Part shown: positions 19,904 to 20,576 of the stretch, piece after piece
Layout of the letters: each line of letters begins with the position of its first letter
How positions within the stretch are numbered: position 1 is the first letter of the stretch
Virus record (IMG/VR): IMGVR_UViG_3300042449_000414
Span: 1 to 24,417 of that record
Length of the DNA stretch: 24,417 bases
Direction: 5' to 3' (one strand)
From: a virus
Notes under the pieces: generated by a model
Database searches by the model: none
The model's input: only the letters and a program-made list of their open reading frames with translations
Told to the model about the DNA's origin: nothing
Program-made: the position numbers and the translations under genes

Positions 19904-19989
19904 GGTGCAGTGGCGAAATGGATAGACGCAGCCCTATCAAGGGGTGGAGGTGAAAGAAACTCATACAGGTTCAAGTCCTGTCTGCACTA
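19904..19989 (+). tRNA. tRNA-Leu-like, anticodon probably CAA
   Basis: The acceptor GGTGCAG/CTGCACT has 7 pairs with a terminal G-U, and the discriminator is A, usual for Leu. The D-arm is GCG/CGC with the class-II Leu pattern, a long variable arm has a GAG/CTC stem, and the T-arm is ACAGG-TTCAAGT-CCTGT. The anticodon arm is irregular. With U33 in place the anticodon reads CAA (19938-19940), but two stem pairs fail. A slipped stem, GCCCT/GGGGT, pairs fully but leaves only a 5-base loop. No CCA is encoded. Confidence 0.75.
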
Positions 19990-20279: not shown

Positions 20280-20428
20280 AGTCAGGTGGCGGAATGAAGG
20301 CACAAAGAGTAATAGTATGTGCTGGATATGGTAGACGCTAAGAAAGAAATTAACTTCGTATCTAAGTGGAAACACATGGTGGTACACTAAAGCATAATTT
20401 CATACAGGTTCGAGTCCTGTCCTGACTA
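20280..20428 (+). tRNA. Oversized tRNA-Leu-like RNA with D-loop hairpin insertion
   Basis: The acceptor AGTCAGG/CCTGACT is perfect and the discriminator is A. The T-arm ACAGG-TTCGAGT-CCTGT is perfect. D-stem GCG (20289-20291) and CGC (20336-20338) flank the Leu-type sequences GCGGAATG and GGTAGACGC, but between them lies an extra hairpin, GCACA (20300-20304) with TGTGC (20318-20322). The anticodon arm is an elongated, mismatched hairpin with TTAA at its tip, suggesting UAA. The variable region is also long. The whole is 149 bases against about 85 for a normal tRNA-Leu. Confidence 0.65.
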
Positions 20429-20444
20429 CAAATTTAAACCATTT

Positions 20445-20576
20445 TCCTGACGTTAGGAAGATGGTGACAGCTTGGAAAGACAAGCAAATTGACCAGGAAT
20501 AGATCTTTTCTTTATTAATCATTTGTTTGTGATCTATGGTGGTATCTCGTGAGTTCGAATCTCACTCTGGTCACCA
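20445..20576 (+). tRNA. tRNA-like RNA with two competing acceptor stems
   Basis: A perfect T-arm (GTGAG-TTCGAAT-CTCAC, 20549-20565) is followed by TCTGGTC, A and an encoded CCA. TCTGGTC pairs with GACCAGG (20491-20497). Alternatively GTCACC (20571-20575 region) pairs with GGTGAC (20463-20468), which precedes a D-arm-like hairpin GCTTG/CAAGC. The two stems exclude each other. Between them lies an extended hairpin, ATAGATC (20499-20505) with GATCTAT (20531-20537). A GTT anticodon (Asn) could sit at its tip in a 6-base loop, but this is uncertain. TTTCCT/AGGAAG forms another hairpin at the 5' side. Confidence 0.55.

Follow-up and report, generated by a model that had tools for sequence, protein, structure and literature searches.

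Probable leucine tRNA-like RNA cassettes without an anticodon arm in phage tRNA arrays

The tRNA-like domain of tmRNA (SsrA) works without an anticodon arm and has other RNA in that place. YrlA Y RNAs are bacterial non-coding RNAs with a tRNA-like module, engineered tRNA scaffolds carry an RNA cargo that replaces the anticodon arm, and some GOLLD and ROOL RNAs are found in phages near tRNAs. The tRNA scaffold has been engineered for recombinant RNA (PMC3753655), and GOLLD and ROOL are large, ornate RNAs that are structured and non-coding (PMC12286853). As for tRNA-Leu, E. coli LeuRS requires A73, the A15-U48 pair, G18G19, A20a and D-T contacts; the anticodon and long variable arms are dispensable for leucine charging, and the anticodon arm is needed for LeuRS editing only (PMC9976931).

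Here, we have analysed a stretch of 24,417 nucleotides (the window), a 24.4-kb linear virus record whose tRNA array contains a leucine tRNA-like element of 149 nt. We consider it very probable that this element belongs to a class of anticodon-less Leu-tRNA-like cassettes. Like canonical bacterial tRNA-Leu, the cassettes have the acceptor, the Leu-type D-arm, the T-arm, A15-U48, A73 and the array context; unlike it, they are without an anticodon arm, their centre is variable and D-loop hairpins are optional. By analogy, tmRNA would be the nearest architectural precedent, although the cassettes are Leu-type rather than Ala-type, have no recognised tag frame, measure ∼62-200 nt and occur as many different copies per genome; neither ARAGORN nor Rfam called a tmRNA in the window. 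In contrast to YrlA Y RNAs, the acceptor stem closes the molecule in the cassettes, a Ro/TROVE protein was found in 1/16 carrier contigs, and the class does not group with the Y RNA/Ro systems. Compared with the engineered scaffold, the cassettes are natural, have a Leu shell and lie in phage arrays, and they are much smaller than GOLLD and ROOL, neither of which had an Rfam match in the window. No published description of such elements was found in the open-access PMC literature searched.

The element and its phage

The window comes from a crAss-like phage, as indicated by its capsid protein (PF23898 Crass_capsid, E 5e-27). Its portal and large terminase were assigned by PHROGs; among named terminases, that of Leptolyngbya phage Lbo-JY46 (39%) and those from Cellulophaga phages come closest. 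Two predicted proteins on the - strand at 94-1722 have long threonine tracts. The tRNA array lies on the + strand at 19.9-20.6 kb, where ARAGORN calls for SeC(TCA), Cys and Met are followed by the 149-nt element and then by another tRNA-like unit (Table 1). Blastn of the array against named phages gave no match, and that of the first 62 nt gave 20-nt chance matches only. A close relative (L002; terminase 98%) matches the window directly downstream of the array, and the L002 stretch compared had neither tRNA calls nor a match to the array itself.

An earlier note on this DNA had described an oversized Leu-like tRNA shape of 149 nt, with perfect acceptor and T-arm and a hairpin interrupting the D-loop. 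The sequence bears this out: all seven acceptor pairs and a complete T-arm can be read, and the hairpin has 6 pairs and lies between GGAATG and GGTAGACGC. Where the note had seen an enlarged and mismatched anticodon arm, there is no anticodon arm at all and a 65-nt centre stands instead. The MFE fold contains the acceptor, the T-arm and the D-loop hairpin. Since the folding energy alone is unremarkable against chance (z -1.24), the case for this element rests on conservation. ARAGORN gave no call for it, and there was no Rfam match, RF00005 included, at the gathering threshold or at E up to 10.

Table 1. Features of the tRNA array, in window positions
Feature	Position	Strand	Details
Second Leu-like element of the class	19904..19989	+	ARAGORN tRNA-SeC(TCA)
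Whole Leu-tRNA-like chassis element	20280..20428	+	149 nt; nt 1 to discriminator A73
5' acceptor strand AGTCAGG	20280..20286	+	7/7 pairs with 20421-20427 (CCTGACT)
U8 G9	20287-20288	+	directly after the 5' acceptor strand
D-arm	20289..20338	+	stem GCG/CGC, 20289-20291 with 20336-20338
D-arm residues	20293-20294; 20330-20331; 20333	+	A14 A15; G18 G19; A20a (element 20280-20428)
D-loop insert module	20297..20329	+	17-sequence alignment A1, mean identity 92%
D-loop hairpin GGCACA/TGTGCT	20299-20304 with 20318-20323	+	6 pairs; 13-nt loop AAGAGTAATAGTA at 20305-20317
Centre (payload)	20339..20403	+	65 nt, replacing anticodon and variable arms; U48 is the last nt, 20403
T-arm, 3' acceptor, A73	20404..20428	+	ACAGG-TTCGAGT-CCTGT, CCTGACT, A73
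Leader motif	20438..20485	+	ACC..GGT hairpin, GACA, GCTTGGAAAGACAAGC hairpin; upstream of third tRNA-like unit
Third non-canonical tRNA-like unit	20491..20573	+	acceptor GACCAGG/TCTGGTC; T-arm GTGAG-TTCGAAT-CTCAC

The shell class and the D-loop hairpin

Modular elements of this kind number in the hundreds, and besides the 149-nt element at least one more lies in the window (19904-19989); the earlier note had missed both points. Their carriers are certain crAss-like phages, which have them interspersed with normal tRNA genes. The shell of these elements is AGTCAGGTGGCGGAATGGTAGACGC...ATACAGGTTCGAATCCTGTCCTGACTA around a variable centre. By matching each acceptor start with its T-arm, we counted at least 208 distinct elements, a number that takes in a minority with other D-arms resembling ordinary or other tRNA-like genes. 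As the scan was seeded with the first 18 nt (at least 120 contigs) and the parser required paired ends, the conservation of the shell is partly ascertainment, in addition to shared descent. Among the matches listed, nearly all elements are 62 to 200 nt long; the four longest measure 273-375 nt, and at least three of these are two elements fused by the parser. The 183 parsed elements gave 143 sequence clusters of centres, 115 of them single (among the matches listed). In 12 carrier contigs there are 1 to 9 copies per contig, always on one strand, when up to 2 mismatches are allowed in the first 15 nt. Among 84,980 species genomes, a shell 25-mer was found in 4 MAG contigs, two of them Chitinophagaceae, which are probably misbinned phage.

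Related arrangements were also seen. Elements in L283, L246, L270, L295 and L304 have the same acceptor and a second T-arm (e.g. GGTCGGTTCGAGTCCGAT) at the position of the D-arm. An unannotated Leu-like element of 102 nt lies on the minus strand of a cultured phage, Leptolyngbya phage Lbo-JY46 (PP438436, ∼124040-124141; L385:24040-24141); its loop is apparently of 8 nt and lacks U33.

The D-loop hairpin was searched for by itself in the IMG/VR contigs, with parts of the loop left free and the element ends unused. Thirty contigs matched; 28 have a Leu-like D-arm and give 18 distinct elements, and the remaining two are chance matches lacking such a D-arm. The 84,980 species genomes gave no match to the hairpin. 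Perfect 7-bp acceptors and T-arms are present in 14 of the 16 hairpin-bearing elements with enough downstream sequence, and U48 is found in all 17 D-module elements with the T-arm in reach. The earlier note had proposed that selection keeps the ends, a view to be given up if relatives showed them decaying as well; the intact ends in 14/16 elements count against decay and uphold the proposal. Moreover, acceptors of relatives have been re-paired by compensatory change (GGTCAGG/CCTGACC, GGTCGGG/CTTGACC and AGTTAGG/CCTAACT).

Alignment of 17 loci shows a nearly invariant loop (AAAGAGNAATRGTA) and 3' strand (TGTGC), and the hairpin pairs are kept in 100% of cells, with AU, GU or GC as the outermost pair. 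The covariation score is modest (reached by 95/500 shuffles) because few positions vary, and the stronger argument for a hairpin module is that its letters are conserved beside unrelated centres. Further D-loop inserts occur in L249/L314/L325, L304/L338, L232/L292, L284 and L286.

These results bear on the possibility that the elements are decaying tRNA-Leu pseudogenes, in which the anticodon region drifts and the ends persist through chance or through recombination among the copies. That the centres are mostly unrelated singletons and barely out-fold shuffles would fit with decay, as would the weak or shifted acceptors of L374 and L369. Against it stand the near-invariant and fully paired D-loop hairpin, the re-paired acceptors, the retention of U48 and A73, the compensatory changes within one centre described below, and the presence of several copies per phage. 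For the D-loop module and for one centre family, these patterns already contradict decay, and we regard it as quite unlikely as an explanation of the class.

Leucylation residues and the missing anticodon arm

By reading, the 149-nt element carries all of the LeuRS determinants (A73, A15-U48, G18G19, A20a and the D-T contacts). Among the matches listed, A15 is found in 177/181 elements, U48 in 165/181 and A73 in 159/181; U48 and A73 had played no part in finding the elements. The kept residues are consistent with leucylation of the class. Since they are also expected from tRNA-Leu descent, charging is something that we infer. G73 is an antideterminant for LeuRS, and its presence in 20/181 elements (among the matches listed) should weaken their charging. 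That LeuRS ignores the anticodon would make sense of a leucine shell, and makes the charging of a non-decoding RNA directly testable.

It is conceivable that the elements are functional decoding tRNAs, whose inserts are spliced as introns or tolerated, including odd 8-nt anticodon loops. They do have the acceptor, the D- and T-arms and the elbow contacts of a decoding tRNA, and a few centres almost permit an anticodon arm (L223 TCGC-TTCAAGGT-GCGG, ARAGORN 'caag'). The 5-bp anticodon stem, 7-nt loop and U33, however, were not found as features of the class. Our test called for 4 or more uninterrupted pairs together with Y32, U33 and R37; 4/139 centre clusters contained such a canonical arm against 2.3 expected from shuffles, which is chance level. 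Among the ARAGORN Leu genes that served as positive control, 31/33 of those with other shells passed the test, compared with 0/9 with this shell. Over all ARAGORN Leu calls, 31/42 passed; the 11 failures are the nine with this shell, L335, in which the shell is shifted by one base, and L005, which has the centre type of 19904-19989. The 49 ARAGORN calls on shell members are spread over 14 labels, and ordinary tRNA-Leu genes, canonical and with other acceptors, already occupy the same arrays.

Spliced inserts had been one suggestion of the earlier note. Some members (62 nt in L143) are too short for this, having no room for an anticodon arm plus a variable arm in any splice form; the exclusion of splicing to a canonical arm applies to the shortest members only. 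RtcB was found in 0/16 carrier contigs, and elements that have the D-loop hairpin share centres with others that do not, both of which also speak against splicing. Decoding is, in our judgement, highly unlikely. As partners of the elements, RtcB (0/16 carriers) and TROVE (1/16) were both ruled out.

The second element in the window (19904-19989) is itself called as a tRNA. Its centre is common to AGTCAGG-shell elements of L223 and L321 and to L005; these relatives have a CYCU/AGRG stem, in L223 and L321 with one base fewer in the loop, and there is no U at position 33. With U33 absent and a centre also found in anticodon-less elements, its reading as a SeC(TCA) suppressor is doubtful, and it is probably not an opal suppressor tRNA.

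Payload centres, possible roles and neighbouring units

Centres and D-loop modules occur in different combinations. L085 and L093 have the D-module, and their centre also occurs in L198, L223 and L313 where the module is absent; the L082 centre is also found in L302, and L368 and L223 have one centre with and without the D-module. In genome G008, the whole 149-nt element recurs with 96% identity (L347, L358), and a match to the window's upstream flank (95%) there adjoins another payload, one that lacks the D-module (L365, L328). Exchange of modules via recombination at the constant shell would be the simplest account.

One centre family, with 5 sequences, has a consensus fold in which 8 pairs are changed on both sides. 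Over all clusters, payload folding is slightly above that of shuffles (mean z -0.72), no general stem closing the centre was found across centres, and stems at the centre's start are no more frequent than in shuffled sequence. A hairpin ending beside nt 48, in the fashion of a variable arm, is enriched (hairpins of 5 bp or more, 58% vs 38%; z 5.8). One covarying family, near-shuffle folding overall and the enrichment of the nt-48 hairpin suggest that the payloads are probably a mixture. Function by conservation appears supported for few payloads, most payload clusters being singletons. When the centres were compared with the loci by blast, no long target that would clearly suit an antisense or guide role was seen, in an indecisive test muddied by duplicate loci.

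We think it reasonably likely that the elements are natural RNA cassettes on a tRNA-Leu chassis, bearing variable payloads with a selected role. Of the three suggestions in the earlier note, a scaffolded RNA fared best. The chassis would retain the acceptor stem, T-arm, D-stem and elbow contacts; an interchangeable payload would stand in for the anticodon arm, in many cases together with the variable arm, and the D-loop could add a hairpin module. The cassettes would be transcribed along with the tRNA array, and their RNA would be trimmed and given CCA in a tRNA-like maturation. Host LeuRS, which requires neither the anticodon nor a long variable arm, could then charge the RNA, and it would persist as a stable molecule that presents its payload loops to phage or host factors. 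From sequence, we expect that the cassettes are probably matured like tRNA and perhaps leucylated like tRNA. Tentatively, the likeliest purpose might be to act in the conflict between phage and host, as a diversified set of RNA decoys or inhibitors, with the shell giving stability and access to tRNA-handling enzymes. A role in that conflict is a guess, possible rather than probable. Just as speculative is a combinatorial repertoire of leucine-charged, non-decoding RNAs in tRNA-Leu shells, whose D-loop and centre modules would be recombined against changing host defences, making them the RNA equivalent of a variable binding scaffold.

The shell could alternatively act alone, as a decoy that titrates LeuRS, EF-Tu, RNase P/Z or a defence enzyme that attacks tRNA, with the centre as free filler. 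A constant shell, a hypervariable and often weakly structured centre, and multiple copies per phage agree with such a decoy. Certain centres and D-loop hairpins, however, are kept from phage to phage, with compensatory changes in one of them, and they move as modules; we therefore judge it unlikely. A tmRNA-like RNA for trans-translation, with a Leu instead of an Ala chassis, would share the architecture of a tRNA-like domain with its anticodon arm replaced, and some relatives of the window phage have predicted tmRNA genes. These relatives, however, already have a predicted ordinary tmRNA, no plausible tag reading frame is seen by eye in the window's 65-nt centre, and stems at the beginning of the centre are no commoner than in shuffles, so that this alternative is barely credible. 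The predicted tmRNAs lie upstream of the terminase in L012, L018, L047, L051, L053 and L054, and their tags are varied, ending in AVAA, EAA or MAA.

If cassettes on a tRNA-Leu chassis are the right reading, phage tRNA arrays would, besides aiding translation, harbour non-coding RNAs in tRNA shells, a large family that gene finders overlook or wrongly annotate under scattered isotypes. The odd tRNA of the window suggests that phages use a tRNA shell to carry other RNA pieces, and the cassettes would represent natural designs for tRNA-scaffolded RNA expression.

The third tRNA-like unit (20491-20573) has a perfect acceptor and T-arm and no D-arm consensus, contains a long hairpin (ATAGATC/GATCTAT) and scored 19.3 bits against the Rfam tRNA model, below gathering. 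The leader motif before it, ACC..GGTGACAGCNNGGAAAGACNNGCA with two hairpins, was found in at least 119 IMG/VR contigs (window 20438-20485; L102-L218); its identity as a known ribozyme was dropped, as Rfam gave no match. Among the matches listed, the leader is followed at 3-6 nt by a tRNA-like 5' end in 21/94 occurrences, compared with 0-1 at control offsets, and directly by an 8-nt inverted repeat in 25/94, compared with 4 at a control offset.
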